Part shown: piece by piece, positions 537-63,930 of the stretch
How the letters are laid out: each line of letters starts with the position of its first letter
How positions within the stretch are numbered: position 1 is the stretch's first letter
NCBI GenBank assembly: GCA_002706085.1
Contig: PAJO01000054.1
Location: 1 to 64,000, forward strand
Length of the DNA stretch: 64,000 nucleotides
Reading direction: 5' to 3'
Origin: Alcanivoracaceae bacterium
GTDB taxonomy: Bacteria > Pseudomonadota > Gammaproteobacteria > Pseudomonadales > Alcanivoracaceae
Made by a program: the position numbers and the translations under genes
The notes under the pieces: model-generated
The model's database searches: none
Seen by the model: the letters and a program-made list of their open reading frames with translations, nothing else
Told to the model about the DNA's origin: nothing

Positions 537-1849
537 GTATCCTGCTGAGCCCCCTTGCGCAGGCAAGCCAGATAAAAGCCATCCGGTCCGTCTTGCTGCG
601 GAAACAACTGCCATCCCGCGTCGACCATTGTGGCCTGTTCCGGCCGCGGCGTCACATCCCGGGCTTGTGGCTGGCGCTGCAGGAAGGCGCTGATCTGGTG
701 ATCATTCTCTTCGCGCAGTACCGAGCAGGTGGCATACACCAGCATGCCGCCGGGTTTGAGCAGCGGCCATAGTGCATCCAGCATGCGGGCTTGTAAATCG
801 GCCAGTACCGGAATGTCCGACGACTTTCGGTGCCACTTTACATCCGGTTGGCGGCGCAGGATGCCGGTGGCGGAACAGGGGGCGTCCAGCAGGATGGCAT
901 CGAACGGCTTGCCGTCCCACCAGCTGTCGGGCTGGCTGGCATCGCCCTGCAACAGGGTGGCGGTGGCGTTGAGGCGGGCCAGATTCTCTTCGATACGGCG
1001 TAGCCGTTTGTCTTCCAGCTCCAGCGCGACCAGCTCGGCGTTGGGGAATTTCTCGCGCAGCTGGCCAGTCTTGCCGCCGGGGGCCGCGCAGGCATCGAGA
1101 ATGCGGCCAGTGGGCGGTGCCTGCAGTAATTCTGCGGGCAGTTGGGCGGCTTCATCCTGTACCGACAGGGCGCCTTCGTCAAAGCCGGGCAGATCGAACA
1201 CCGGCCGGGCCGGCGTCACATAAATGCTCCAGGGGGACAGTTCACCGGGGCGAGCGCCCTCACCCAGGGCGGCAATGGCGCCGGCGCGCTGTTGCTGCTG
1301 ACGATTGACCCGCAAGGTAAAGGGGGGCGTGTGCAGGTTGGCCTGGGCGATCGCGTCGGCTTGATCCGGCCAGTCCTGGCGCCAGCGTTTGTATAGCCAG
1401 TCCGGCAGGCTCAGGCGGATATTCGGGGTGGCGTCGGCAAGCGCTTGCTCAGCACGTAGCTGGCTGGCTTTACGTAACACGGCGTTGCTGAGCCCGGCGG
1501 CCCAGGGGGCTTTCAGCTTGCGGCACAGGGCCGGGTACGCGTTGACGATGGCATGGGCCGGGCGTTCGGTGAACCACAGCTCGTACAGTCCGGCCAGCAG
1601 GGCGAGGCGCACGGGTTGGGCGCTGGCTTTGAGGGGCTTGGATAATTGCTGGTTGAGCCAGTGGTTGAGGGGGCGCAAATGGCGGCAGACCCCAAAGCTG
1701 ATGTCGCGCATCAGGCCGCCGTCGCTGCCAGCCAGGGGGAAGTCCCGCAGCACCTCGCGCAGGCTTTCCCCGTCGCCCTTGCCGGGAATCACCCGGTCAA
1801 GGACACGCACGGCGCTGAGCCGCGGGTCAGGCGTCGCCACGGTCTGCAT
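533..1849 (-). CDS. rsmB: 16S rRNA m5C967 methyltransferase RsmB
   Basis: SAM-dependent enzyme that methylates C967 of 16S rRNA (Sun/Fmu family). An N-terminal NusB-like domain spans about residues 10-140 and a class I methyltransferase domain follows. SAM motif I is [10 protein letters not shown]. The two catalytic cysteines lie in DAPCSATG and YATCSV. I chose the ATG at 1849 because it puts these cysteines at 325 and 375, the E. coli positions; a TTG at 1864 would add five residues. The product is 438 aa, a normal length. The gene overlaps the fmt 3' end by 23 bp and trkA by 4 bp, so it is in the middle of a coupled operon. Confidence 0.95.
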
Positions 1850-2807
1850 CCAGCGGATCACCAAGAGGCTCGCCCACCTGGAACAGGTCGGGGTTGCCGC
1901 GCAACAGGTCGGCCACGGCCATGCGCCGTTTGCCGGGCAGTTGCAGCTCTTCCAGCGTCAGGATGCCATCACCTGTGGCCACCTGAATGCCGTTGTCATC
2001 CACGTTGAGGATATGGCCGGGTTCGTCGTCATCCTTGCCGGGCAGGGGGCTTTCGCTGGCTTTCCAGATGCGCATGGGTTGGCCTTTCAAAGGCACCCAC
2101 GCGACAGGAAAGGGGTTGAAGGCACGAATGCGGTTATACAGGGCGCGGGTGGGCAGGCGGAAATCCAGCAGCCCCTCGGCCTTGCTGAGTTTGTGGGCGT
2201 AGGTGACACCGTCGTCAGGCTGCACGGTGGCGTTGGCCAGATACGGCTCCAGATCATTCAGTACGGTGACCAGCAGGCGAGCGCCCTGGGCGGCCAGCCG
2301 GTCGTGCAGCTCGCCGCCGGTCTCGCTGTCACCGATGGGTAGCGCTTCGCTGAGCAGCATGGGGCCGGTATCAAGCCCGGCTTCCATCTGCATGATGGTG
2401 TTGCCGGTTTCGGTGTCGCCCACGCTGATGGCGCGCTGGATTGGCGCTGCCCCACGCCAGCGGGGCAGCAGGGAGCCGTGCACGTTCAGGCAGCCAAGCC
2501 GTGGGATGTCCAGCACGGCCTGGGGAATGATCAGGCCGTAGGCGACCACCACCAGGGCATCCAGATTCAGGTCGCGCAGCTGTTGGCGAATGGCCTCGCC
2601 CTTGAGGTTTTCCGGTTGCAGTACGTCTATGTGATGGGCCTGGGCCAGCTGTTTGACCGGGCTCATCTGGACCTTCTTGCCGCGACCGGCAGCGCGGTCC
2701 GGCTGGGTGAGTACGGCTACCACTTCATGCGGGCTGTCGAGTACGGCCTGCAGGCTGGCGGCGGCGAAATCCGGGGTGCCGGCGAAGGCGAGACGTAGGG
2801 GTTTCAA
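1827..2807 (-). CDS. fmt: Methionyl-tRNA formyltransferase
   Basis: Formylates initiator Met-tRNA using 10-formyl-THF. The 326 aa protein begins MKPLRLAFAGTPDFAAASL, the family signature. The catalytic triad is visible as N108 and H110 in LNVHGSLLPRWRGAAP and D146 in GLDTGPML. The C-terminal OB-like domain is complete. The start is a TTG at 2807; there is no in-frame ATG upstream, and the alignment to the family start supports it. It is the first gene of the leftward fmt-rsmB-trkA group and lies next to def, which encodes the enzyme that removes the formyl group it adds. A repeat element separates the two. Confidence 0.95.
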   Translation of the reverse strand: MKPLRLAFAGTPDFAAASLQAVLDSPHEVVAVLTQPDRAAGRGKKVQMSPVKQLAQAHHIDVLQPENLKGEAIRQQLRDLNLDALVVVAYGLIIPQAVLDIPRLGCLNVHGSLLPRWRGAAPIQRAISVGDTETGNTIMQMEAGLDTGPMLLSEALPIGDSETGGELHDRLAAQGARLLVTVLNDLEPYLANATVQPDDGVTYAHKLSKAEGLLDFRLPTRALYNRIRAFNPFPVAWVPLKGQPMRIWKASESPLPGKDDDEPGHILNVDDNGIQVATGDGILTLEELQLPGKRRMAVADLLRGNPDLFQVGEPLGDPLDADRGDA

Positions 2808-2850
2808 TGAACGGCCTCTGGGTTGGTGATGGTGGGGGAGGGAGATTAGC

Positions 2851-3006
2851 TGAAAGTTTAAAGTTGAAAGTTCAAACGCGGATCACTGTTGCAGCCAGCG
2901 AATGGACGCTTTCCCCGCGCCGCAACGCTTCGGCGCGGGTGATGGGCTTGAAGCTGGCACCGTCTGTGCTCGCGCTTTTCAACTTTACACTTTGAACTTT
3001 CAACTC
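2851..3006. repeat. Heptad-arm inverted element between fmt and def
   Basis: Left arm 2851-2880 is a run of degenerate 7-mers (TGAAAGT, TTAAAGT, TGAAAGT, TCAAACG). Right arm 2971-3006 is the inverted counterpart and ends at the def stop codon. The interior has a GC-rich hairpin around 2916-2942. The arms can pair imperfectly, giving a cruciform or a long RNA hairpin. It belongs to a dispersed family seen at about ten places in this window (see findings). Seen directly; function unknown. Confidence 0.6.
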
Positions 3007-3511
3007 ACCCCTGCAGCCGGTGCACTTTTTCCAGCTTCTTCTTGATCCGGTCGCGCTTCAGGCGTGAGACGTAGTCCACGAACAGCTTGCCTTCCAGGTG
3101 ATCAATTTCATGCTGGATACAGGTGGCCAGTAGCTCGTCGGCCTCTTCCTCGAAAACATTACCGTCCCGGTCCAGCGCCTTGATCTTCACCCGTGCCGGG
3201 CGCTTGACCTTCTCATAGAAGCCGGGGACCGACAGGCAGCCTTCCTCGTAGGGGGCAAGATCGTCGGTGAGCGGGGTGATTTCCGGGTTGATGAACACCC
3301 GTGGCTCGGACTTGTCTTCGGACAGGTCCATGACGATGACACGCTTGTGTACGTTCACCTGGGTGGCGGCCAGGCCAATCCCGGGGGCGTCGTACATGGT
3401 TTCGAACATGTCGTCGATCAGTTTGCGAAGCTCGTCATCCACCTTTTCCACCGGCTTTGCTACGGTTCGTAGCCGGGGGTCAGGGAATTCCAGTATTTCC
3501 AGTTTGGCCAT
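3005..3511 (-). CDS. def: Peptide deformylase
   Basis: Metalloenzyme that removes the N-formyl group from new proteins. The start is the ATG at 3511 ([15 protein letters not shown]), giving 168 aa; upstream in-frame codons do not resemble the family. All three motifs are present: GIGLAATQ (44-51), EGCLSVP with metal ligand C92, and QHEIDH with H134, E135 and H138. It is divergent from the LysM-dprA genes, with about 145 bp between them that must hold both promoters. Family member with complete active site. Confidence 0.97.
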
Positions 3512-3655
3512 GTACGTTCTCGGCAGTTGCGATAGCACTCGAAATTTGGTTGCTAAATATATGATCGCATTGCTAATATCCAAAAGAAACCGTGCCTGCC
3601 TCAAGGACGCACGGCAGCTCTTGGGGATGAGTCCAATAATGATAAAAGGAATCCG

Positions 3656-29437: not shown

Positions 29438-31537
29438 CTAAATATCCGCGTAATCCTGGCCGCCCTTGAGCCAGCGCCGCAGGAGTGGGTCGACCAGCGA
29501 GGGGCACTCCTGCAGTAGTCGGTCGGCCACCTCGCGGGCCGGTTCCATCAGCGCTTCGTCACGCACCAGATCGGCAATCCGGAACGCCAGGTCACCGGTC
29601 TGGCGGGTGCCCAGCCACTCGCCGGGACCTCGCAGTTTCAAATCTTCTTCAGCGATCACGAAGCCATCGGTGGTGTCACGCATGACCGCCAGGCGTTGTT
29701 TGCCCGTCAGCGATAGCGGGCTCTTGTAGAGCAGCAGGCAGTAACTCTGTTCGCCCCCCCGGCCTACACGACCCCGTAGCTGGTGCAGTTGTGCCAGTCC
29801 CAGCCGTTCGGCATTTTCCATCACCATCAGGGTAGCGTTGGGCACATCCACGCCGACCTCGATCACGGTGGTGGCGATCAGTAACTGGGCCTGGCCGGAG
29901 GAGAAGCGCGCCATGCGTTCCGCCTTTTCCTTGGCCTTCATGCGTCCGTGCACCAGTTCCACGGTCAGCTCAGGCAGCGCCGCCTGTAATTCCTCGTAGG
30001 TGGCCTCCGCGGCCTGGGCTTGGAGTTCTTCGGATTCCTCGATCAGAGTGCAAACCCAATACGCTTGTGTGCCGGCCTGACAGGCATCATTGATGCGTTC
30101 AATCACCTGGGGGCGACGCCCTTCCGGCAGCACCAGCGTATCGATGGGTTTGCGCCCCGGCGGCATTTCGTCGATCACCGAGGTATCCAGATCCCCGTAC
30201 ACACTCATGGCCAGGGTGCGGGGAATGGGGGTGGCGGTGAGTACCAGCTGATGGGGCACCTGTACCCCGTGGCGGGTATCGAAGCGGCCTTTTTCCCGCA
30301 GGGCAAGACGCTGCTGGACGCCGAAGCGATGCTGTTCATCAATGATGGTCAGGCCCAGGCGATGAAACTGTACGGCATCCTGAAACAGGGCATGGGTGCC
30401 GACCACGATATTGGCGCTGCCATCGGCAAGGGCGGCGTTGGTCTCGCGGCGTGCCTTTGCCCCCAGGCTGCCGGCCAGCCAGTGCACCTCGATGCCCAGC
30501 GGCGAGAGCCACTGGCGGAAGTTGTCACGGTGCTGTTCGGCCAGCAGTTCGGTGGGGGCCATCAGTGCCACCTGGTAGCCGGCCTCAATGGCGGCCAGTG
30601 CGGCGGCGGCGGCCACCAGTGTCTTGCCGGAGCCCACGTCCCCTTGCACCAGCCGTAACATGGGATGAGGCTGTCCCATGTCTTTCATCAGTTCGGCGAT
30701 GACCCGTTGTTGCGCCCCGGTCAGAGCGAAGGGCAGGCTGCCTTGCAAGCGATCGAACAGGGTGGTGCCGGTGAGCCGGGGGGCATGGAAGGCTTTCTGC
30801 CCGGCCCGTTTTTGCAGCATGCCGAGTTGGTGGGCCACCATCTCTTCCATCACCAGGCGCTGCACTGCCGGGTGCTGGCCTTCCAGCAGCAGATTGACCG
30901 GGTCATCCGGGCGCGGGTTGTGCAGCTTGGTCAAGGCGTCGGTGAGGCTGGGCAGGCCGCTCTGATCCAGCAGGGAGGAAGGAATCAGCTCGCGGGGCGG
31001 GTGTGCCTGCAAATACGCCAGAGCCTGGGTGGTGAGGTTGCGCAGGGTTTTCTGGCTGACGCCATCGGTAGTGGGATATACCGGTGTCAACGCTTTTTCC
31101 AGCGGCGGTAGCGGCTGGTGGCCATGGGCGATCTGGTATTCGGGGTGATAGAACTCCAGGCCGGCGGCTCCCGGGCGGGGTTCGCCGTATACCCGGATCG
31201 GCCGACCCCGTTCCAGATTGTTCTTCTGTGCGGCAGTAAAGTGATAGAAGCGCAGCGTGACCATGCCGGTGCCGTCTGCCACCTTGCAGAGCAGGGAGCG
31301 GCGGCGGCCGAAGACCACATCGGCGGCCATGACTTCCCCTTCAATGACCACCCCGGTTTCCGGTCGCAGGCTGCCAATGGGGGTAATGCGGGTGCGGTCC
31401 TCGTAGCGAAAGGGCAGATGGAAGAGCAGGTCTTCCAGATTATGCAGCCCCAGCTTGGTCAGTTTCTCGGCCGCAGCCGGTCCCACGCCCTTGAGGCGAT
31501 TCAGTGGGAGGCTGGAGAGAGAATCACTGGCCATCAA
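29438..31537 (-). CDS. recG: ATP-dependent DNA helicase RecG
   Basis: Branch-migrating helicase that reverses stalled forks and processes Holliday junctions. 699 aa. N-terminal wedge/OB domain (FRYEDRTRI); helicase motif I GDVGSGKTLVAAAA, motif II IIDEQHRFGVQQR, motif III LTATPIPRTLAM, motif VI LHQLRGRVGRGG. Two ATGs open the gene (31537, 31534). It follows oxyR on the same strand, the Pseudomonas order, with a repeat element between them. Confidence 0.97.
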   Translation of the reverse strand: MMASDSLSSLPLNRLKGVGPAAAEKLTKLGLHNLEDLLFHLPFRYEDRTRITPIGSLRPETGVVIEGEVMAADVVFGRRRSLLCKVADGTGMVTLRFYHFTAAQKNNLERGRPIRVYGEPRPGAAGLEFYHPEYQIAHGHQPLPPLEKALTPVYPTTDGVSQKTLRNLTTQALAYLQAHPPRELIPSSLLDQSGLPSLTDALTKLHNPRPDDPVNLLLEGQHPAVQRLVMEEMVAHQLGMLQKRAGQKAFHAPRLTGTTLFDRLQGSLPFALTGAQQRVIAELMKDMGQPHPMLRLVQGDVGSGKTLVAAAAALAAIEAGYQVALMAPTELLAEQHRDNFRQWLSPLGIEVHWLAGSLGAKARRETNAALADGSANIVVGTHALFQDAVQFHRLGLTIIDEQHRFGVQQRLALREKGRFDTRHGVQVPHQLVLTATPIPRTLAMSVYGDLDTSVIDEMPPGRKPIDTLVLPEGRRPQVIERINDACQAGTQAYWVCTLIEESEELQAQAAEATYEELQAALPELTVELVHGRMKAKEKAERMARFSSGQAQLLIATTVIEVGVDVPNATLMVMENAERLGLAQLHQLRGRVGRGGEQSYCLLLYKSPLSLTGKQRLAVMRDTTDGFVIAEEDLKLRGPGEWLGTRQTGDLAFRIADLVRDEALMEPAREVADRLLQECPSLVDPLLRRWLKGGQDYADI

Positions 31538-31553
31538 TAATGCGTTCCGTCAG

Positions 31554-31628
31554 CGAGTTGCGAGGAGCGAGTGTCGAAAGGCAAAACCGCTTTTGCACTT
31601 CGTCACCCGTCACTCGCGTGTCGACACG
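31554..31628. repeat. Heptad-arm inverted element between oxyR and recG
   Basis: Arm 31554-31583 reads GAGTTGC, GAGGAGC, GAGTGTC, GAAAGGC; arm 31596-31628 is its inverted imperfect counterpart. It forms a compact stem-loop between the oxyR stop and recG start. A near copy with the same words lies at 36588-36642. Confidence 0.55.
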
Positions 31629-31629
31629 T

Positions 31630-32532
31630 TTACCCCGACAGTCCTTCCTTGGGCACGGCCTGGCGCAGTACCTCGATGGCCTTGGGACGCGGGAAGCTGT
31701 CACGCCAGACCAGCGCAATGGTTCGTGACGGGACCGGCTCCTCGAAGGGGCGAACGGTGAAGGTGTCTTTGTCATAGCCGTGCTGATAGAGCGCGGTGTT
31801 GGGCAACACCGTGACCCCGAGACCGCCGGCCACCATGTGGCGCAGGGTTTCCAGGGAGCCACCTTCGATCTGCACCAGGTTTTTCTGGCTTTGAGAATCG
31901 ATGGCCGGGCACAGCTCCAGCACCTGATCCCGGAAACAATGGCCTTCGCCCAGCAGCAGCAGGGTTTCGTTGAGCAGCTGTTCCGGGGCGATTTTCTTTT
32001 GCGAGGACCAGGCATGGTCCTTGGGCAGCAATACCGAGAACGACTCCTCGTACATGCGTGCCCGCACCAGACCACCACCGGAGAACGGCAGCGCCACAAT
32101 GATGGCATCCAGCTCGCCGTGTTCCAGCTTGCGGCGCAGTACGTGGGTGTAGTTTTCCTCGATGAACAGGGGCATGTCCGGGGCCGCCTTGCGTACCTGT
32201 GGCACCATGGCCGGGAACAGATACGGTGCCACGGTAAAGATCGCGCCAACACGCAGCGGTGAGCCCAGCTGGTCACGCTGACTCAGGGCCATTTGCGACA
32301 GCAGGTCAGCTTGCTCCAATACCCGCTGTGCCTGGGTGACGATGGGCTCCGCCTGCGGGGTCACCACCACTTCTCGGGGACGGCGCTCGAACAGGGGCAT
32401 GCCGAGCTGTTCTTCCAGCTTCTTGATGGCGGCACTGAGGGTGGGCTGGCTGACGTTGCAGGCCTGGGCGGCGTGGCCGAAATGGCGTTCACGGGCCAGG
32501 GCGACTAGATAGCGAAGTTCTGTTAATGTCAT
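31630..32532 (-). CDS. oxyR: Hydrogen peroxide-sensing regulator OxyR
   Basis: LysR-type activator of catalase and peroxidase genes. From ATG 32532 it is 300 aa, and the redox cysteines fall exactly at C199 and C208 (GEGHCFRDQVLELC), as in E. coli OxyR. HTH LVALARERHFGHAAQACNVS at the N-terminus. Located before recG as in Pseudomonas. Oxidation to the disulfide activates the family; no target promoter is visible next to it. Confidence 0.97.
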   Translation of the reverse strand: MTLTELRYLVALARERHFGHAAQACNVSQPTLSAAIKKLEEQLGMPLFERRPREVVVTPQAEPIVTQAQRVLEQADLLSQMALSQRDQLGSPLRVGAIFTVAPYLFPAMVPQVRKAAPDMPLFIEENYTHVLRRKLEHGELDAIIVALPFSGGGLVRARMYEESFSVLLPKDHAWSSQKKIAPEQLLNETLLLLGEGHCFRDQVLELCPAIDSQSQKNLVQIEGGSLETLRHMVAGGLGVTVLPNTALYQHGYDKDTFTVRPFEEPVPSRTIALVWRDSFPRPKAIEVLRQAVPKEGLSG

Positions 32533-32599
32533 GGCGTCGATATGTTTAGTCGATGATGGCCCATTGTGCACCTCGTAGAACCTCGATGCTAGAGGGTCA

Positions 32600-32640
32600 G
32601 GCAGTTAACAGTTAACAGTGAATAGTTAACAGCTCGCGGA
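32600..32640. repeat. Heptad repeat arm upstream of oxyR
   Basis: AGTTAAC, AGTTAAC, AGTGAAT, AGTTAAC followed by AGCTCGCGG: four 7-mers in tandem and the GC-rich inner edge seen in other copies. Only one arm is visible, so this may be a half element. It lies in the 203 bp gap between the divergent oxyR and yeeZ-like genes. Confidence 0.55.
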
Positions 32641-32735
32641 GCGGGTGTGGTAGCAGATTTTGGACTGTTGTGCCGCGGTTGCAGAATGTCTTGTGGCCAG
32701 CGGTCGTTAAAAGCGCGTTTTAAATTTGGAGCGAT

Positions 32736-33575
32736 ATGTCTCATATCTTGATTGCGGGTCTTGGGGATTTGGGCTCGGGGCTGGCGCAAGTGTTGTTGGC
32801 CGAGGGGCATCGGGTCAGTGCCATCCGCCGCGGGCAGCAGTGTCCGGTAGGGGTGGAGTTGTATAGCCAGGACCTCACTGAGGGCGCGGTCATGTTGCCG
32901 CCGGATCAGGTGGATCTGCTGGTGATCATCATGACGCCGTCCGAGTACAGCGAAGCGGGTTACCTGAAGGCGTTCGTGCGGGCGCCGCTGACCTTGCTGG
33001 ATGCCCTGGCCCAACAACAACCCCTGCCGCCGGTGGTGTTTGTGTCCAGCAGTGCCGTCTTCGGTGAACTGGCCGGCGAGGTGGATGAGCTAACGTCGCC
33101 CAGGCCGTCCCGCTATAACGGCAAGGTATTGCTGGCAGCGGAAGAGGAAATCAGCGCCCGCAGCATGGCCACGGTGGTACGTTTCACCGGTATCTATGGT
33201 CCTGGCCGCTATCGCCAGATCGACAAGGCGGCGCGGTTGGCCAGGGGCGAAGAGGCCCTGCCAGCGTCTCAATGGACCAACCGTATCCACCGCGATGACT
33301 GCGTGGGTCTGCTGCACAGTGTGGTGAGCGGCTGGCTGAAGGGGCAGGAAATGCCGCCGCTGGTGGTGGGCACGGACTCTGTGGGTGGCCGTAATCTGGA
33401 TGTGTTGCAGTGGTTGGCACAGCAGCAGGGGCTAAGCCTGGAGGTTCCCGGCGATACGCTCGACGCCCCCCCCGCCGGCAAACAGGTCAGAAGTCGGTAT
33501 ATCTCTCAAGGTCACTACACCCTCAAGTATCCCGGTTACCGGGAAGGGTATGCTCAGGTGCTGGCGGAGAGGTGA
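32736..33575 (+). CDS. YeeZ-like NAD-dependent epimerase/dehydratase family protein
   Basis: 279 aa extended SDR. N-terminal nucleotide motif is IAGLGDLGSGLA, then FVSSSAVFGELAGEV and RFTGIYGPGRY. The catalytic Tyr region is SRYNGKVLLAAEEE (YxxxK). It starts at ATG 32736. Related to E. coli YeeZ; the substrate is unknown. The gap downstream to purE is 446 bp and rich in repeats. Confidence 0.8.
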   Translation: MSHILIAGLGDLGSGLAQVLLAEGHRVSAIRRGQQCPVGVELYSQDLTEGAVMLPPDQVDLLVIIMTPSEYSEAGYLKAFVRAPLTLLDALAQQQPLPPVVFVSSSAVFGELAGEVDELTSPRPSRYNGKVLLAAEEEISARSMATVVRFTGIYGPGRYRQIDKAARLARGEEALPASQWTNRIHRDDCVGLLHSVVSGWLKGQEMPPLVVGTDSVGGRNLDVLQWLAQQQGLSLEVPGDTLDAPPAGKQVRSRYISQGHYTLKYPGYREGYAQVLAER

Positions 33576-33816
33576 GCGACAAGCTCCAAGCTGCAAGCTA
33601 CAAGGCGCGGATGGGGCCCGAGTGAATCCAGCGCCCTGCCCGCGCTCCAGGTTTCAGTTAGACGAGCGGCCAACCCAGCCTTGAAGGGAGCTCAATCGCC
33701 AGCAGACTGGCTCCTACGCCGGGAAACACTGCCACCCGCGTTGATCGCGGGCACAACATGTCAGTGCACATCCAGTCCAACCCGCGCCTTGTAGCTTGCA
33801 GCTTGAAGCTTGTCGC
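33576..33816. repeat. Heptad-arm inverted element downstream of yeeZ-like gene, with a REP inside
   Basis: Left arm 33576-33610 (ACAAGCT, CCAAGCT, GCAAGCT, ACAAGGC, then GCGG) and right arm 33782-33816, which is its near-perfect reverse complement. The core holds GCCCTGCCCGCG (33633-33644), AGACGAGCGGCC (33660-33671) and CGCGGGCA, shared in order with the element at 49145-49330. A REP (33695-33717) sits within the core. Confidence 0.65.
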
Positions 33817-34021
33817 TGCCTTCAAAGCGCATTTCCGGCGTTTTCACGCTAAAATCGCCCTCCTGTCGGGCAATGACGTCCTCGTTGGTCGTTTTTTCGC
33901 CGTCAGACTTGCCTCCGGCGCTGGCATTAGTAAAGTGTGCGCCTCAAATTTTATCCGTGGCGGTGCCAGACCCTCCTGAAGCGCCGCAAAGGCCCGTGGT
34001 GGGCGCAATGGAGAGATGTGC
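33817..34021. other. purE upstream region
   Basis: 205 bp without a gene on the plus strand; it must carry the purE-purK promoter. I see AT-rich stretches (AAATCGCC, CTCAAATTTTATCC near 33946-33960) but no operator I can name with confidence. A PurR-type palindrome was not found. Confidence 0.3.
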
Positions 34022-34513
34022 ATGAGTACACCGGTTGCCGTGGTAATGGGCTCCCAATCCGATTGGGAAACCATGAAAGAAGCCTGTGACGCCCTGACCC
34101 AGTTCGGTGTTGGCTGGAAAGCCGAGGTGGTCTCTGCCCACCGCACCCCCCAGCGCATGTACGACTTCGCCAAAAGTGCCCATGAAAACGGCTACAAGGT
34201 CATCATCGCCGGTGCCGGTGGTGCGGCTCACCTGCCGGGCATGATCGCCGCCCTGACCCCGCTGCCAGTGCTCGGTGTGCCGGTGAAAAGCCGGACCCTG
34301 TCTGGCTGGGACAGCCTGTTGTCCATCGTGCAGATGCCCAAGGGCGTGGCGGTGGGTACCCTGGCGATCGGCGCGGCCGGGGCCTGGAATGCCGGGCTGC
34401 TGGCGTCGCAGATGCTGGCAGCGGAGAATCCCGAGCTGCTGAACAAGATTGCTGAATGGAAAGCCTCGCGTGCTGACGAGGTGCTGGCCAACGCGGAGCT
34501 GGGCCAGGGCTAG
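34022..34513 (+). CDS. purE: N5-carboxyaminoimidazole ribonucleotide mutase
   Basis: Converts N5-CAIR to CAIR in purine synthesis. 163 aa from ATG 34022 (GGAG upstream). Signatures: [30 protein letters not shown] with the catalytic His, [12 protein letters not shown] and [14 protein letters not shown]. It is followed 44 bp later by purK, its partner enzyme. Confidence 0.97.
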
Positions 34514-34557
34514 GCCCGACCCTCAATTCGCCCCTGCTTGTGACTAACGGATCTGCT

Positions 34558-35664
34558 ATGAATCGCGTACTCGTTCTTGGTGGTGGCCAGCTTGGCCTGA
34601 TGATGGCGGAGGCCGCAGCCCGGCTGGGGCTGGTGGTGGACCGTTACGATCCGGAGCGAGCGCTGCTGCTGCCAGGCACCTCTGATCTGGCGGTACCGAT
34701 CAGCTGGGAAGAATGCCAGGAGCGTTACCCGGTGATTACCGTGGAGCGCGAAGCGTTCCCGGAAGAGGGCCTGTCGGCGGATCTGGCCAGAAGCGACCGC
34801 TGCGTGGCCCGCGGTGCCCTGCAGGTGATCCCGGATCGCTTCACCCAGAAAGCCATGCTCGACAAGCTGGGCATCCCCACCGCGCCCTGGGTCACCCTGG
34901 ACAAGGCAGAGGATCTGCAGGCGGCTGTCGCGCAGTTTGGCGGTGTGGTGGTGAAAGCCCGCACCGGCGGCTATGACGGTCGTGGCACCTGGATTGTGGG
35001 CGAAGGGGGCGATCTGTCTTCCGTGCCTGCGGCAGAGCTGGCCGGCAAAGCCATCATCGAGCAAAAGATTCCCTTCCGCCGTGAACTGTCCATCGTGGGG
35101 GCTCGCAGTATTAGCGGCGAAACCCTGTTCTACCCGCTGACCCGCAACTGGCATGTGGACGGTATCCTGCGCCTGAGTCTGGCACCAGCCAATGCCTGTA
35201 GCGATCTGCAGAAGCCAGCGGAACAGATGCTCAAGGGCATCATGGAGGAACTGGATTACGCCGGTGTCATGGCGGTGGAGTTCTTCGAAGTGGATGGCCA
35301 GCTGATGGTCAACGAAATTGCCCCGCGGGTGCACAACTCCGGTCACTGGACCCACGAAGGCGCGGACTGGTCCCAGTTCGACCTGCACGTCCATGCCTTG
35401 GCCGGTGTGCCGCTGCACGCGCTCAACGTCCATGGCCCCTCTGCCATGGTTAACCTGATCGGCACGCCTTTCGAGAGCGCCTGGTTGCAACACCCGGGTG
35501 TGGTGCACTGGTACGGCAAGAGCGTGCGACCGGGCCGCAAGGTGGGTCATGCCAACCTGGTGGCGGGTACTCTGGAAGGGTTACGAAAGGGCCTGGATGC
35601 CTGGGCCGACGTGCTTCCGGAAGGCTATCAGGCGGTCCTGGATTCCGAGCTGGGGCTGGGCTGA
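34558..35664 (+). CDS. purK: N5-carboxyaminoimidazole ribonucleotide synthase
   Basis: ATP-grasp enzyme that makes N5-CAIR from AIR, bicarbonate and ATP. 368 aa from ATG 34558 (a GTG at 34540 would add six residues). N-terminal VLVLGGGQLGLMMAEAA; ATP-grasp segments VVVKARTGGYDGRGTW and MAVEFFEV; NEIAPRVHNSGHWT near the end. Forms a two-gene operon with purE. Confidence 0.97.
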   Translation: MNRVLVLGGGQLGLMMAEAAARLGLVVDRYDPERALLLPGTSDLAVPISWEECQERYPVITVEREAFPEEGLSADLARSDRCVARGALQVIPDRFTQKAMLDKLGIPTAPWVTLDKAEDLQAAVAQFGGVVVKARTGGYDGRGTWIVGEGGDLSSVPAAELAGKAIIEQKIPFRRELSIVGARSISGETLFYPLTRNWHVDGILRLSLAPANACSDLQKPAEQMLKGIMEELDYAGVMAVEFFEVDGQLMVNEIAPRVHNSGHWTHEGADWSQFDLHVHALAGVPLHALNVHGPSAMVNLIGTPFESAWLQHPGVVHWYGKSVRPGRKVGHANLVAGTLEGLRKGLDAWADVLPEGYQAVLDSELGLG

Positions 35665-56374: not shown

Positions 56375-56851
56375 ATGCCCAATTATCGTAGAAACTATGT
56401 GCCTGGAGGGTGCTACTTCTTTACCGTGAATCTGGCTGACCGCAGCCAAGACCTGCTGATTCGCCACTGGCCGCTCTTGCGGCAAACTATACAGGCTGTG
56501 CGAGTCGACCGGCCCTTCCGGTTGGATGCTCTGGTGGTCATGCCCGATCACCTGCATGCCGTATGGACCTTGCCGGAGCATGATGCGGATTTCTCTAGCC
56601 GTTGGCGCGCCATCAAAAGCCGTTTCAGCAAGGCGCTGAGGGTTGAGGAGGCTGTTTGGCAGCGCCGCTTCAGGGAGCATACCTTGAAGGATGAAGCCAG
56701 TTATCGCCGGCATGTGGATTATGTGCACCTGAATCCGGTGAAACATGGATATGTGAGCAAGATACAGGATTGGCACTTCTCCACGTTTCATCAGTATGTA
56801 GAGAAAGGACTCTATGCGCCGGATTGGATGGGGAGGCATCCGCTGGGGTAG
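56375..56851 (+). mobile_element. REP-associated tyrosine transposase (RAYT 2)
   Basis: 158 aa Y1/HUH transposase. N-terminus PNYRRNYVPGGCYFFTVNL; HUH pair in VMPDHLHAVWTLP; catalytic Tyr in HVDYVHLNPVKHGYV. It starts at ATG 56375 after TTAGGAGG. Different subgroup from RAYT 1 by sequence, with its own REP pair upstream. Intact frame. Lies between radC and rpmB. Confidence 0.9.
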
Positions 56852-57538: not shown

Positions 57539-57567
57539 AAAAACCCGGGCAGCGCCCGGGTTTTTTT
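57539..57567 (+). terminator. Intrinsic terminator after rpmG
   Basis: AACCCGGGC-AGC-GCCCGGGTT followed by seven T: strong Rho-independent terminator closing the rpmBG operon. Confidence 0.95.
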
Positions 57568-57649
57568 ATGTCTTAATTCCTGCCTTTCCTTTCTTTGTCT
57601 ATTGCCGTTGTTTCCCTGCCTGCTAAATCGCTGACACCGCTTGATGAAA

Positions 57650-57671
57650 AATGTGACATGTGTCACATTTT
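57650..57671. promoter_or_regulatory. Perfect CRP/Vfr-type palindrome upstream of the Tad locus
   Basis: AATGTGACATGTGTCACATT contains TGTGA-N6-TCACA (57652-57667) with further A/T symmetry outside, identical at all ten core positions to the cAMP receptor protein consensus. It lies between the rpmG terminator and flp, about 220 bp before the flp ATG. The rest of the 383 bp gap shows no gene. Binding by a Vfr/CRP protein is a prediction. Confidence 0.65.
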
Positions 57672-57886
57672 GAAATGCTACCGCTTGTCGCCAAGATGCC
57701 TCCAATTAGCGCCAGGTTGCCCATGACACTTGAGATTGGGGGCGGTTAGGCGTGTTATTGATTCAGCTACATAAAGTAAACGGACTGTTGCTTGTAGCTT
57801 TCACGATACGCGAATAGCATTCGTTTGTGGGTTCATATTTGCGCATATGGCGCGTGGTTTCATAGGGAAATGACGGGAGAGTAGTT

Positions 57887-58114
57887 ATGAACAGCCTCAA
57901 CACGTTTTGTCAGGGCCTGATGGCCCGTTTGTATGCCCGCTCCAGTGGTGGTGCGCGTAAACAGCGCGGTGCCAGCGCCCTAGAATATATTGTGCTGGCA
58001 GCAGCACTGATCATCATCATTGGGGTTGCTGTTGCGAATGGGGCAGGCGATGCCTTGACGGGCGCTTTCACGGACTTGTTCTCCGATGCAGCGGCCGGGG
58101 GCGGCGAAGGCTGA
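57887..58114 (+). CDS. flp: Flp-type type IVb pilin
   Basis: 75 aa major pilin of the Tad pilus. A basic leader ends at G28; the mature protein would start ASALEYIVLAAALIIIIGVA, with the Glu at +5 and Tyr at +6 of Flp pilins, followed by the hydrophobic helix. Ribosome site GGGAGAG. First gene of the Tad cluster, with its own promoter region. The prepilin peptidase (TadV) is not in the window. Confidence 0.92.
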   Translation: MNSLNTFCQGLMARLYARSSGGARKQRGASALEYIVLAAALIIIIGVAVANGAGDALTGAFTDLFSDAAAGGGEG

Positions 58115-58136: not shown

Positions 58137-58586
58137 ATGAATGGCCGTCAACGACAGGTCGGTGCCGTTGCACTGGAATTCCTCATGCTGTTCCCGTTTG
58201 TGGTGGCCATGCTCTATGGCTCGGCGGTGTACGGCCTGACCTTTTTTGCCCAATACCGGATGCAGAGCGCGGTGGACGATGCCGTGGAAACCGCGCTGTA
58301 CCTTGACCGTTCCCGATTTGAAGACAACCTCGGCGGTGCCGTGACCACCCGTGCCAACAGTGCGTTGGCGGCGCTGGTGGCGCGGTTGCCGCCCAGTCTT
58401 CGTGGTCTGGATACCAGTGCCGCTTGTGCGCTGGAGACTCTGGGCGGGATCGAAATGTTGCACTGCCGTCTGGTCTATCCGAATTATCGGTCCAATCCGG
58501 TTGTGCCGGCGTTGGATTTTGGCATGCTGGGGGCATTCCCGCCGCTGCCTGCGCAGCTGGATGTGGATGCAAGGGCCGCTTTCTAA
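58137..58586 (+). CDS. TadE/TadG-like pseudopilin
   Basis: 149 aa from ATG 58137. The prepilin-like site is VG/AVALEFLMLFPFVVAML (cleavage after G9, Glu at +5), then a periplasmic domain with two cysteines (SAACALETL, MLHCRLVYP). Typical TadE/F-like minor pseudopilin. It lies 22 bp after flp, before cpaB. Confidence 0.8.
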   Translation: MNGRQRQVGAVALEFLMLFPFVVAMLYGSAVYGLTFFAQYRMQSAVDDAVETALYLDRSRFEDNLGGAVTTRANSALAALVARLPPSLRGLDTSAACALETLGGIEMLHCRLVYPNYRSNPVVPALDFGMLGAFPPLPAQLDVDARAAF

Positions 58587-58646: not shown

Positions 58647-59480
58647 ATGGGTTCTAGATTGCTGTATATGTTGCCGGCGCTGGTTGTGGCGCTGGTGGCA
58701 CTGATTCTTGCCTTCGCGGGTCTAAGCCGTGACCCTGCTCCCGCATTGAACGTGGAGCAGCAGAGCGAGGGGGATGCCCAGCCGCAGGCCCCGGCCTATC
58801 GGTATTGGGTTGTGACCGAAAGCCTCAACGTGGGCGATACCCTGGAAGAGGATTCTCTGGCCGTGGTCTCCTCGCCTGCCCCTATCGCCAACGTACTCAA
58901 CGCCGATGAAAAAGTGGTCGGCAAGCCGTTGCTTCAATATGCCCGTCCGGGCGAACTGTTATCGCGCAATCATCTTGAGCCTGGTGGCACGCTGCCAGGC
59001 AATGTGCCCGCCGGATTCCGTGCCGTGGCCGTGGCCGTGGATGATGTGGTGATGGCCGGTGGGCTGCTGCAACCCGGCGATCTGGTCGATGTAGTGGTCG
59101 CATTCCGCAAGGGCATGGAGCGGGATAACCCCGCGGCCATGATCCTGCTTAATCATGTTCAGGTGCTGGCGGTAAAAGGGGCCATGGGGGTGGCGGATTC
59201 CGACGCTGCCCGGGAAGCCCAGCGCCGCAATAATACCGTGGTGCTGGCAGTGCCTGGGGACAAGGTGCCTTCACTGTTGCTGGCGGCGGAAGAAGGGGTG
59301 TTGAGACTGGCGGTGGTGGCCAGTGAAGACAAAGCTGTGGCAGACGTTTCAAAGACCGGCAAGCCGGTCTACTTCCGGGATCTGTTCCCGGCGGGCAAGA
59401 AGCCAGCGCCAAAGGCGGCACCGGGGCAACGGGTGGAAGTCTACGAAGGATCGGATTCAAGGAGCACCTATGTACGTTAG
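58647..59480 (+). CDS. cpaB: Flp pilus assembly protein RcpC/CpaB
   Basis: 277 aa, one N-terminal TM helix (MLPALVVALVALILAFAGL) and a SAF domain (WVVTESLNVGDTLEEDSLAVV), then the RcpC/CpaB domain (GFRAVAVAVDDVVMAGGLLQ-PGDLVDVVV). Periplasmic partner of the outer-membrane secretin encoded next. Overlaps cpaC by 11 bp. Confidence 0.92.
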   Translation: MGSRLLYMLPALVVALVALILAFAGLSRDPAPALNVEQQSEGDAQPQAPAYRYWVVTESLNVGDTLEEDSLAVVSSPAPIANVLNADEKVVGKPLLQYARPGELLSRNHLEPGGTLPGNVPAGFRAVAVAVDDVVMAGGLLQPGDLVDVVVAFRKGMERDNPAAMILLNHVQVLAVKGAMGVADSDAAREAQRRNNTVVLAVPGDKVPSLLLAAEEGVLRLAVVASEDKAVADVSKTGKPVYFRDLFPAGKKPAPKAAPGQRVEVYEGSDSRSTYVR

Positions 59481-60630
59481 AGCATGGAGTCGCGCGCTGG
59501 TGCTACTGCTGGCGGGTTGTGTGAGTATGGCGGGCTGGGCGGAAAGTTTCAGCGGGTCTATGCGGGTGGCGCCGGGAGACCAGAAAGTCCTCACGTTCCC
59601 TGCGGCGGTGGCGAAGGTGGCCACGTCTGACCCGGCGGTAGCCGCGCTGACGGTGACTGGTAGCCAGGAATTGTTGCTGACGGCCAAGGACGAAGGCTCT
59701 GCCGTGTTGTCGATATGGCTGCGCGGCGAAAGCAAGCCGTTGCGTAGCACCGTGGTGGTGGCAACGACGCTGGGTTCATCGTTGCCCTTTGGGACGCAGG
59801 TCCAGACCGATATTCGTGTGCTGGAGGTCAGTCGCTCTGAGTTGAACCAGATGGGGATCAGCTACAGCAATGTCTGGGACGGCGGCGCCTCCGGTGCCGG
59901 CATTGCCGTGCCGGGGACCGGGTTCCAGGCGCCGGGAGCTGCGCCAGTACCGCTCAACTCGGAAGGCTTCAACCTGTTCAAGTTTGGTTCCAACTCTGTG
60001 GTGGCCATTAATGCGTTGGAAGCCGGCGGTTTTGCCTACACCCTGGCAGAGCCCTCACTCACCAGCTTGTCAGGCCAGAGCGCCAGCTTTCTTTCTGGCG
60101 GGGAATTCCCGGTGCCGACGCGCAGTACCACTGATGGTGTGCAAATCGAATTCAAGGAATTTGGTATCGGCCTGAGCCTGACGCCAACCGTGATTGATGA
60201 GTCGCAAATTATCCTCAAAGTGGCGCCGGAAGTGTCCGAGCTGGATTTTTCCGCCGGGGTGGAAACGGGCGGGGTTGCGGTGCCGGGTCTGAGGGTGCGA
60301 CGGGCAGAAACCACGGTATCGCTGGCGCCGGGAGAAACGTTCATTATCAGCGGCCTGGTCAGTCGCAACACCATCAACAACAGCGACCGGCTGCCGGGGA
60401 TTGGTAACATCCCGTTGCTGGGCGCGTTCTTCCGCTCCTCCCGTATCGAGAAAAATGACAAGGAGCTGGTTATGGTGGTGACGCCACACCTGGTGACACC
60501 GCAGAACAGCACCGAGCCGCCGGTTACCTTGCCGGGTGCGGGCTATCACAACAGCAGCATGGGGTGGCTGGACATGGCCACAGAAAGTCGCCGCGGGTCG
60601 CAACCGATCCGTCATGGTCTGAGCTGGTGA
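59470..60630 (+). CDS. cpaC: Tad secretin RcpA/CpaC
   Basis: 386 aa from ATG 59470 (GGAG at 59461). Signal peptide to about AGWA; N-terminal domain (FSGSMRVAPGDQKVLTFPAA, a BON-like pilus-secretin part); secretin core: TDIRVLEVSRSELNQMGISY, then SGGEFPVPT and the C-terminal LPGIGNIPLLGAFFRS and ELVMVVTPHLV. Forms the outer-membrane pore for the Flp pilus. A little short for the family but complete. Confidence 0.92.
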   Translation: MYVRAWSRALVLLLAGCVSMAGWAESFSGSMRVAPGDQKVLTFPAAVAKVATSDPAVAALTVTGSQELLLTAKDEGSAVLSIWLRGESKPLRSTVVVATTLGSSLPFGTQVQTDIRVLEVSRSELNQMGISYSNVWDGGASGAGIAVPGTGFQAPGAAPVPLNSEGFNLFKFGSNSVVAINALEAGGFAYTLAEPSLTSLSGQSASFLSGGEFPVPTRSTTDGVQIEFKEFGIGLSLTPTVIDESQIILKVAPEVSELDFSAGVETGGVAVPGLRVRRAETTVSLAPGETFIISGLVSRNTINNSDRLPGIGNIPLLGAFFRSSRIEKNDKELVMVVTPHLVTPQNSTEPPVTLPGAGYHNSSMGWLDMATESRRGSQPIRHGLSW

Positions 60631-60634
60631 TGCC

Positions 60635-61825
60635 ATGAGTGACCACGACATTGTTCTTTCGGTGGTGGACGACACGGGCCTGGAGACCTGGCTCGAGCGG
60701 GTGGTGGAAGAACCGTTCCGTCTGGAGCAGGTGAGCCGGACAGACCTGACGCGTGTCTTGCGGTTATTGGAAGCGACCACGGCCCATGTGGTGATGGTGG
60801 AAATTTCCGAAGCCGATATGGATCAGTCTCTGGCCATCATTACTGCCCTGACCAGCGCCCGCCCCTGGGTGACCGTGATTACGGTGTGCTCCCGTGCGAA
60901 TCAGGAGCTGCTGCTACAGTCCATGCGTGCGGGTGCCCGGGACTGTTTTGTGGCGGGCAGTGATGCGTCTGACGTGCGCGAACGCTTGCGGCGGCACCAG
61001 TTGCTGCGGGTCGGTCATTACGATGATCAGGTACGCGCGGCCAACAGCAACCTGGTACTGGTGGCCTCTGCCAGTGATACCGTGGATACCCGGTTTCTGG
61101 CGCAGAATGTGGCGCTGGGCCTCAATCGTCTGTTCCCCGAACAGCGGTGCCTCGCCATCGATACCCAGCCCAGCGGGCGCAGTCTCTTTTATCTGGATGT
61201 CCACAACGAATACACCCTGGAAAACCTGCTCGCCAGCCCGGAAACCCTGGACGAAACCCTGATTGGGACCGCACTGGAAGAATACCGCCCTGGGCTGCGT
61301 TTGCTGGCGGGCGGGTTGCGCCGGGATGAGCTGGAAGGGGATCGCAGTGCAGACCTCTTCATTGCCCTGAATCACTTGATGCAGATGTTTGATCGCATTG
61401 TCATCAATGTCGGCACGTTGCAGAGCCGCCACTGGGTGCGTGCACTCGGGATTCATGCCCGCCACCTTTTGATTGCCATGCACCCGCTGGTGGATCAGGC
61501 CCATGTGGTGCGCAGTCTGGGTAGCGAGTGGCGCGCGCATCTGGGCAAGGATAGCCAGGTCAGCCTGGTAGTGGATGGTCTGGATACCCGTGTACCGCCG
61601 TCACTGGATGAACTGTCCGAGACGGCGGGGATGCCCGTTCTGGCGGGGTTGCCCATGGATTGGCGCCACCGGTTGCTGGCCATGAACACCGGCCTGCCGG
61701 TACAGGAGCAGGCGCCGCGTAGTCGTTATGCCCGTTCCCTGCAGGCATTGGTGGGCAAACTGGAGCTGGGCCAGGGTGACGTGGCCGAGCAAAGCTGGTG
61801 GCAGCGTTTGCGCAGCAAGGGTTAG
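60635..61825 (+). CDS. tadZ: TadZ/CpaE pilus-localising ATPase-like protein
   Basis: 396 aa. N-terminal receiver-like domain (about 5-120) and a MinD/ParA-like domain from 130. The place of the deviant Walker A reads LVLVASASDTVDTRFLAQ, with no KGGxGKT lysines, so ATP hydrolysis is doubtful. CpaE/TadZ directs the pilus machine to a cell pole. ATG 60635 is 4 bp after the cpaC stop. Confidence 0.88.
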   Translation: MSDHDIVLSVVDDTGLETWLERVVEEPFRLEQVSRTDLTRVLRLLEATTAHVVMVEISEADMDQSLAIITALTSARPWVTVITVCSRANQELLLQSMRAGARDCFVAGSDASDVRERLRRHQLLRVGHYDDQVRAANSNLVLVASASDTVDTRFLAQNVALGLNRLFPEQRCLAIDTQPSGRSLFYLDVHNEYTLENLLASPETLDETLIGTALEEYRPGLRLLAGGLRRDELEGDRSADLFIALNHLMQMFDRIVINVGTLQSRHWVRALGIHARHLLIAMHPLVDQAHVVRSLGSEWRAHLGKDSQVSLVVDGLDTRVPPSLDELSETAGMPVLAGLPMDWRHRLLAMNTGLPVQEQAPRSRYARSLQALVGKLELGQGDVAEQSWWQRLRSKG

Positions 61826-61852: not shown

Positions 61853-63013
61853 GTGGCTGGGCGGATAGACGCAGAATACCAACAGCTCAAGGACCGTACC
61901 CATCGCTGGGTGGTGGAGCGCCTCGACGAAGAAGGTGTCGAAGTGAGCCAGGCCAACAGCGATGTGCTGGTGGAATTTGTGCGTAATGCGGTTGGCCAGC
62001 ACATCGCCCTGAACCGGGTGCCACTGTCGACCCAGGACCTGAACCAGTTATCGCGGGACACGCTGGACGAAGTGATGGGCTTTGGCCCGCTGGAACCGTT
62101 ACTGGCCGACCCCAAGGTGAACGACATCCTGGTGAATGGCCCCGATAGCGTGTTTATCGAGGTGGCGGGGGTTCTGCAGAAGGCGCCGGTGAGGTTCATC
62201 AATGATGATCATGTGATCCGGGTGATTCGCCGCATGCTGGCCCCGTTGGGGCGGCGGTTGGATGAGTCCAGCCCGATGGTAGATGCGCGTCTGCCGGATG
62301 GGTCGCGGGTCAACGCCATCATCCCGCCGCTGGCCCTTGATGGGCCCAGTATCAGTGTTCGTAAATTCACCCGAAATCATTTAAGTGCCGAGGCATTGAT
62401 CGAAAGTGGCTCACTGACCCAGGCCTGTCTCGATACCCTGATCAAGGCGGTGGAATCGCGGCGCAATATCATCGTCAGTGGTGGTACCGGTACCGGCAAG
62501 ACCACCATGTTAAACCTGATCAGTCAGCACATTCCCCGTGAAGAGCGGATTCTGACCATCGAGGATTCCGCTGAGCTGGTACTGCACCATCCCCATGTGG
62601 TGCGTCTGGAAACCCGCCCAGCCAACACCGAAGGCAAGGGGCGTATCAGTGCCCGTGAGTTGGTCGTCAATGCACTACGGATGCGCCCGGACCGGATTAT
62701 TCTGGGTGAGGTGCGTTCCAGCGAAATCATTGAACTCTTGCAGGCCATGAACACCGGCCACGAAGGCTCCATGAGTACGATCCACTCCAACAGTACCCGT
62801 GATGCCCTGGTGAGGATCGAAACCCTGCTGGCGGTGAGTGGCTATGACGCCAGCGAGCAGGCCATTTCACGGCTGATCGGCTCAGCACTGGATGTGATCA
62901 TCCAGTTGCAGCGATTGCCTGATGGCCGACGGCGGGTCAGTGAAGTGGTTGCCCTCACCCCTACCGAACAGGATCCCTATCATCTGGATTACCTGTACCG
63001 GAGCGAGCCATGA
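61853..63013 (+). CDS. tadA: Tad secretion ATPase TadA/CpaF
   Basis: 386 aa hexameric pilus ATPase; GTG start at 61853. Walker A SGGTGTGKTTMLN (about 208-220), Asp box LTIEDSAEL, Walker B MRPDRIILGEVR and His box GHEGSMSTIHSN. Drives assembly and perhaps retraction. Overlaps tadB by 4 bp. Confidence 0.95.
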   Translation: MAGRIDAEYQQLKDRTHRWVVERLDEEGVEVSQANSDVLVEFVRNAVGQHIALNRVPLSTQDLNQLSRDTLDEVMGFGPLEPLLADPKVNDILVNGPDSVFIEVAGVLQKAPVRFINDDHVIRVIRRMLAPLGRRLDESSPMVDARLPDGSRVNAIIPPLALDGPSISVRKFTRNHLSAEALIESGSLTQACLDTLIKAVESRRNIIVSGGTGTGKTTMLNLISQHIPREERILTIEDSAELVLHHPHVVRLETRPANTEGKGRISARELVVNALRMRPDRIILGEVRSSEIIELLQAMNTGHEGSMSTIHSNSTRDALVRIETLLAVSGYDASEQAISRLIGSALDVIIQLQRLPDGRRRVSEVVALTPTEQDPYHLDYLYRSEP

Positions 63014-63930
63014 GTGCGGTGCAGCTGCTCGGCATGGCGCAGACACTCGGCATTATTGCCGTGCTGACAGTGCTGGTGCAGTTGCTGTGGTTTCGTCGTC
63101 GACAAAGCCACGTATTGAAAAGCCGGATTCGTCAGCGACTCGAGCAGCGATCGGAGCTGGCATCCGAAGCCTTGCCGGGACGTGTGGCCGCGGGGCCGTT
63201 GGAGCGGTTTCTGCTGCGCGCGGATATCCAGTTGGGGCGCGGTCAGTTGGGCGGGCTGGCAGTACTGGTGTTTTTTATTCTGGTGATGGTCATCGTGAGC
63301 TCCGGTTGGATTCCGGCCATTTCCGTGTTTGCCCTGATGTTGGCCAGTGCCTGGCTGTATTGGCGTTATCGATTTCAACAGCAGCGTCGCATGATCTTTG
63401 AATCTTTACCGGGGATCATGGATTCGGTGCTGCGTTACATGGATGCCGGCCGCTCATTGGAAGCGTCGCTGCAGGAAGCCTTTCACGATGCTCCACCGGT
63501 TTTTGCGCCGCTCACGTTTCGGCTGCGCAGTGCCATTGAATCCGGGCGTGACTTTACGGGCCTGTTTGATGAGTTCGCCCGGCTCTATCAGGTTGCCTCT
63601 CTGGTATTGGTATCGATTGCCTTGCGTACATCGGCCCGTTTTGGCTCGTCGGTTCGACCGGTATTGCAACAGGTGGCCAATTCACTGCGTTCCCAGCAGG
63701 AGTTACGGCGGGAGTTTTTGGCATCCACCGCAGAAACGCGCTTTACCGCTGGGGCCTTTACCCTCCTGCCTCTCGGCATGGCGGTCTACATGATGCTGAT
63801 CAACGAGAAATATGCGGAGGTCCTGCTGGATACCGCGACCGGTCACAACATGTTGATGATTGCCGGCGTGCTGCAGACGTTGGGGGTCATCGTGATCTGG
63901 CGGATGGTGCAGGGGGTGGGCCGTGAATAA
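63010..63930 (+). CDS. tadB: Tad inner membrane platform protein TadB
   Basis: 306 aa. N-terminal TM, two helices at about 75-120 (AVLVFFILVMVIVSSGWI, ISVFALMLASAWLYW), T2SSF domain (LPGIMDSVLRYMDAGRSLEA ... FARLYQVASLVLVSIALRTS) and two C-terminal helices. Overlaps tadA (ATGA) and is overlapped by tadC. Confidence 0.93.
   Translation: MSAVQLLGMAQTLGIIAVLTVLVQLLWFRRRQSHVLKSRIRQRLEQRSELASEALPGRVAAGPLERFLLRADIQLGRGQLGGLAVLVFFILVMVIVSSGWIPAISVFALMLASAWLYWRYRFQQQRRMIFESLPGIMDSVLRYMDAGRSLEASLQEAFHDAPPVFAPLTFRLRSAIESGRDFTGLFDEFARLYQVASLVLVSIALRTSARFGSSVRPVLQQVANSLRSQQELRREFLASTAETRFTAGAFTLLPLGMAVYMMLINEKYAEVLLDTATGHNMLMIAGVLQTLGVIVIWRMVQGVGRE

Follow-up and report, generated by a model that had tools for sequence, protein, structure and literature searches.

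Operators for CRP in Escherichia coli follow the consensus AAATGTGA-N6-TCACATTT. In class I and class II activation the centre of such a site lies near −41.5 or at −61.5 to −92.5, and CRP centred at about −27, over the −35 element and the spacer, would block the polymerase, making this a repressor position. How bacteria that own both type IVa and Tad pili choose between them is not well known, and pilus control is of interest in oil-degrading bacteria, which must attach to droplets. In Pseudomonas aeruginosa, Vfr and AlgR bind together at the fimU promoter according to the accessible part of PMC8787478, and CCGTTCGTC and CCGTTTGTC are AlgR sequences of that species in the available sections of PMC4064291. 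A P. aeruginosa pilY1 mutant has lowered tad, flp and pprAB mRNA (excerpts of PMC13001225). In Alcanivorax borkumensis, RNA-seq of cells on cork sorbent versus none showed rcpA, tadZ and tadB down two- to threefold, along with 12 type IVa pilus genes (excerpts of PMC8417381). Among titles and abstracts that join Tad/Flp with CRP, cAMP or Vfr, we recognised no CRP/Vfr control of a Tad locus; in the available portions of two Vibrio papers, CRP was confined to reference lists or a table.

A conserved palindrome between rpmG and flp

The window, a stretch of 64,000 nt (contig G000:C54), belongs to a genome of the marine oil degrader Alcanivorax, 3.78 Mb in size and with A. profundi as its best named relative (91% in RcpC), which corrects the Pseudomonas frame of an earlier sequence-only reading. 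All of the genes of the locus lie on the forward strand. The ribosomal protein genes rpmB (L28; 57077–57313) and rpmG (L33; 57336–57503), both named by eye from their translations, are followed by a strong terminator hairpin at 57539–57567, recognised from sequence and folding, and then by flp (57887–58114; a Flp/Fap profile match under the curated cut-off), a tadE-like pseudopilin gene (58137–58586, with the start picked by eye in a frame open from 58086), rcpC/cpaB (58647–59480), the secretin gene rcpA/cpaC (59470–60630), tadZ/cpaE (60635–61825), the ATPase gene tadA/cpaF (61853–63013) and tadB (63010–63930). An Rfam search up to E 0.1 gave nothing beyond two leucine-leader matches below threshold, both at the rpmG terminator, and a search of a plasmid collection in distant mode gave no match. 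Ten open reading frames were tested in the 20 kb past the window, and those adjoining the tad genes gave no regulator match; a gene of TetR type follows ∼8.5 kb on. Upstream of rpmB, a 158-residue open reading frame (56375–56851, forward strand) resembles REP-associated transposases by eye and had no Pfam match at E 0.001. Elsewhere in the same genome (G000:C28, about 31291–34923) there is another locus with distant similarity to TadA and RcpC, and in locus L038 a 617-residue open reading frame without a Pfam match (1679–3532) lies downstream of the T2SSF and TPR genes of the tad locus.

The 383 bp gap between rpmG and flp contains AAATGTGACATGTGTCACATTT, with the 22 bp CRP/Vfr-like operator AAA-TGTGA-CATGTG-TCACA-TTT at 57649–57670 and its core TGTGACATGTGTCACA at 57652–57667; we assign it no strand. 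The perfect core with A/T flanks that the sequence-only reading had claimed, 3′ of the rpmG terminator and 5′ of flp, is thus confirmed in both sequence and placing. The description of it as the best possible CRP site slightly overstates the match, because within the inner six bases, CATGTG, symmetry is confined to the outermost pair. Judged by eye, the site agrees with 14 of the 18 letters specified in the P. aeruginosa Vfr consensus, as it appears in the accessible part of PMC8787478. The perfect pattern TGTGA-N6-TCACA occurs once in the window, while cores with at most one mismatch number two against 1.5 expected; therefore only the perfect match is informative. It exceeds chance: in 20,000 dinucleotide shuffles of the gap a perfect core appeared in 0.04% and a one-mismatch core in 1%, and the whole genome holds seven perfect cores against one for the reversed control pattern.

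Comparison with relatives marks the palindrome as a conserved regulatory element. Our genus set comprised 17 genomes, in all of which rpmG lies upstream of the tad genes with flp between them. The best core in these 17 gaps is perfect in nine, has one mismatch in seven and two mismatches in one (17/17 with at most two, 16/17 with at most one), whereas dinucleotide shuffles average 0.013 (perfect), 0.25 (one mismatch or fewer) and 2.9 (two or fewer) of 17. Altered patterns allowed one mismatch gave 0/17 each for N5, N7, reversed and rotated forms and 1/17 each for N4 and N8. Within the family, 38 genomes had an RcpC match, of which 37 were examined (17, 13 and 7 from three genera), the weak match in G044 being left out. 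A perfect core stands in all 13 loci of the sister genus, about 70–95 bp 5′ of the likely flp start. The third genus has a core in four of seven loci (one perfect, ∼250 bp upstream, and three with one mismatch close to flp) and none in the other three, although Vfr is present. The tie between a CRP/Vfr site and the Tad operon is accordingly kept before flp in three genera, at differing positions, and is missing from three of the seven third-genus loci. A TadA search of 145 genomes from the order matched 34 that lie outside the family; 20 of those loci were fetched and 12 had an flp recognised by motif, and within 450 bp of these a one-mismatch core was seen in 2/12 and a perfect core in 0/12. 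In 26 proximal sites the half-sites are near-invariant, an impression favoured by choosing the sites by motif, with the last A the most variable letter (75%) and the inner six bases in 19 forms.

The regulator and its other predicted targets

The sequence-only reading had proposed looking for crp or vfr in the genome. Three Crp-type helix-turn-helix genes were found, one of which adjoins trpC; vfr likewise lies beside trpC in Pseudomonas. The best solved relatives of the trpC-linked protein are P. aeruginosa Vfr structures, and its helix-turn-helix stretch has the same letters as that of P. aeruginosa Vfr. By these sequence features the gene is the Vfr/CRP orthologue, and the objection that the genome might hold no CRP/Vfr homologue therefore falls away. 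Vfr is 97–100% identical in 16 of the 17 genus genomes and was found in 45 of 46 family genomes; none was seen in G011, a draft genome of the genus (93% complete) that carries the site. For cAMP synthesis, the genome gave two matches to class III adenylate cyclase and none to class I, so that a cognate regulator and candidate cyclase genes are both present. The 400 bp 5′ of vfr hold no core with fewer than three mismatches.

Of the other six perfect cores in the genome, one falls within purD, one precedes fimU-pilV, one is at the start of a MASE2-class III cyclase gene, one is close to a metallo-hydrolase gene, and two precede genes for endonuclease I and a DUF11 protein; these last two are at 1501–1516 of the fetched loci L008 and L010, respectively. 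The gene fimU was matched in 16 of the 17 genus genomes (none in G016), and scanning 400 bp upstream showed a core before these type IVa minor pilin genes in 15 of the 16, of which 14 were perfect and one had a single mismatch; L122 had none. All 17 genus genomes carry a core where the MASE2-class III cyclase gene begins, two perfect and 15 with one mismatch. In L006 (1501–1516) the core adjoins the likely start codon of this gene, a predicted site placed as for feedback repression. Separate conservation before fimU and the cyclase gene supports the prediction that type IVa pilus genes belong to a Vfr regulon. Because the same core stands before flp, fimU-pilV and the cyclase gene, the Tad operon probably belongs to this cAMP–Vfr regulon together with type IVa pili; the predicted sites suggest that one cAMP signal would coordinate the Tad pilus, a second pilus type and the cAMP-making enzyme.

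Position relative to the predicted flp promoter

All promoter positions given here are predictions. On the forward strand of the window we place the −35 element of flp at TTGTAG (57792–57797) and the −10 element at TAGCAT (57815–57820). The arrangement TTGnnn-17-TAGCAT or TAGGAT is kept 5′ of flp in all 17 genus gaps, and TTGTGA-18-TAnnAT in all 13 sister-genus loci. In ten genus loci and the 13 of the sister genus, the palindrome is centred at about −27 and extends over the predicted −35 element and spacer, its first half forming part of the predicted −35 element itself. In seven genus loci, including the window, this proximal palindrome is gone and the core lies about 168–175 bp 5′ of the predicted start, the window site being centred at about −168. 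Three loci (L013, L026 and L027) have both a proximal core, perfect or with one or two mismatches, and a one-mismatch core 82 bp farther up. In an RcpC tree of 31 rows, the distal type takes two changes, and a single origin is compatible with the tree; L025–L027 branch there with two third-genus rows, so the tree departs from the genus labels. The distal position in the window species is unusual and probably derived.

Neither about −168 in the window nor about −27 in relatives corresponds to class I or II spacing from the predicted promoters. We also considered a class I or II promoter just 3′ of the window site and rejected it, since inspection of the seven distal-type loci by eye gave no conserved, suitably spaced −10 element. 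Simple class I or II activation by the window site is not supported by the sequence. With the window site at about −168 and that of relatives on the core promoter, activation is therefore not to be assumed: of the earlier proposal of cAMP control of Flp pilus formation the conserved site stands, while flp has its predicted promoter a long way 3′ of it. Farther down, TTCATATTTGCGCATATG at 57832–57849 in the flp leader is kept in several genus genomes. In the gap of L019, 5′ of the predicted flp promoter, there are conserved blocks GTGCTACGTTTACAG and CGCAACAAAA, followed by TACGCAG, which are perhaps sites of another regulator.

Thirteen nucleotides past the operator core there is a putative AlgR-like box on the forward strand at 57681–57689, CCGCTTGTC, with two mismatches to CCGTTCGTC; it is part of a further block conserved in the genus. 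Five of the 17 genus gaps, all from one cluster of near relatives, have exact CCGTTCGTC and three have CCGTTTGTC, with weaker forms in most others; counting both strands, exact CCGTTYGTC occurs in 8/17 gaps, where shuffles give 0.1. Upstream of fimU, the exact form occurs in 1/16 and a form with at most one mismatch in 8/16 (shuffle means of 0.05 and 1.0). Searched by motif, neither the fetched loci nor a 300 kb portion of one relative showed algR; in that relative, the closed 3.12 Mb genome G001, neither argH nor algR was seen in the 20 kb pieces, whose placing was guessed from accession order and at whose borders cut frames can be missed. AlgR is a candidate partner at the window gap.

Proposed mechanism, alternatives and known systems

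The window site is most likely a Vfr operator of the Tad operon, as predicted from its sequence and conservation. In the full reading, to which we give a probability of about 0.72, cAMP–Vfr would set flp-tad transcription through 57649–57670 and share this control with fimU-pilV and the cyclase gene. Adenylate cyclases would raise cAMP, and Vfr with bound cAMP would then set transcription of the flp-tad operon; Vfr is predicted to bind also before fimU-pilV and the MASE2-class III cyclase gene, so that one cAMP circuit would join both pilus systems. In the presumably older arrangement (10/17 genus and 13/13 sister-genus loci), with the operator over the flp −35 element and spacer, Vfr should block RNA polymerase; in the seven genus genomes including the window, with the operator at about −168 to −175 by the AlgR-like box, Vfr would be likelier to help than to block. 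Joined into a single account of a cAMP–Vfr switch rewired by a moved operator, in which the proximal site, present in most of the Alcanivoracaceae tad loci examined, would turn Tad off as type IVa pili come on and the window's, ∼140 bp farther up and by the AlgR-like box, would lead to co-expression of both, these steps make a doubtful proposal. A conserved cAMP-type operator before flp, minor pilin and cyclase genes would be a direct link between pilus systems, and the natural species differences in operator position offer a ready comparison of repression with activation.

Vfr might instead repress flp-tad throughout, in the window lineage too (for example from −168 by bending or through a partner protein), and high cAMP would therefore mean type IVa pili on and Tad off. 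The sites at about −27 over TTGnnn-17-TAG[CG]AT in ten genus loci and TTGTGA-18-TAnnAT in 13 sister loci favour this reading; we regard it as unlikely, though worth keeping in mind, as the site of the window lineage is no longer over the predicted promoter and the tad and type IVa genes of A. borkumensis fell together in the excerpts of PMC8417381. That joint fall fits shared control, with other causes possible, and speaks against a simple either-or switch; a qualifier is that, if G001 is, as we infer, A. borkumensis, the proximal site of this species has two mismatches.

The palindrome could also act as RNA, as a second terminator or a leader hairpin past rpmG: it folds into a 10 bp hairpin of −11.3 kcal/mol (z −3.5; 1/200 shuffles as good), and the pair adjoining the half-sites can form in 10/17 best cores, including 7/7 of the distal type. 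The far stronger rpmG terminator (−25.1 kcal/mol) ends 85 nt upstream, however, the inner pair forms in just 3/10 of the other gaps, and the exact 6 bp spacing, like the recurrence of the core 5′ of fimU and the cyclase gene, suits a protein dimer, leaving a role as RNA improbable. Equally improbable is that the site is read by another CRP/FNR-family protein, either the FNR-like one or a 231-residue paralogue; the genome does offer three Crp-type genes, but by eye the recognition helices of the other two (VETVSR and RQGVHR) differ from REMVGR of Vfr, and an FNR site, TTGAT-N4-ATCAA, differs from the window core. A chance match without function would be in keeping with the weak genome-wide excess of cores with at most one mismatch (60 against 34 for the reversed pattern) and with the one perfect core inside purD; set against conservation in 17/17 and 13/13 loci, compared with shuffles and altered patterns, it is very improbable.

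The Vfr reading, which we prefer, can be compared with three known systems. The window site shares its layout with the E. coli CRP operator and differs in lying at neither a class I nor a class II distance from the predicted promoter. PprAB control of P. aeruginosa flp-tad likewise ties regulation of a Tad operon to type IVa pili; unlike in Alcanivorax, no Vfr site before flp is mentioned in the available excerpts of PMC13001225. As far as the accessible part of PMC8787478 describes it, the P. aeruginosa fimU-pilVWXY1E system is like the present one in having a Vfr orthologue, AlgR or AlgR-like boxes and a pilus operon as the target, and its Vfr site, at −142 to −102 from the ATG, lies well 5′ of the start codon, as does that of the window. 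The Alcanivorax system differs in that AlgR is a candidate here, the core is perfect and the target includes the Tad operon.
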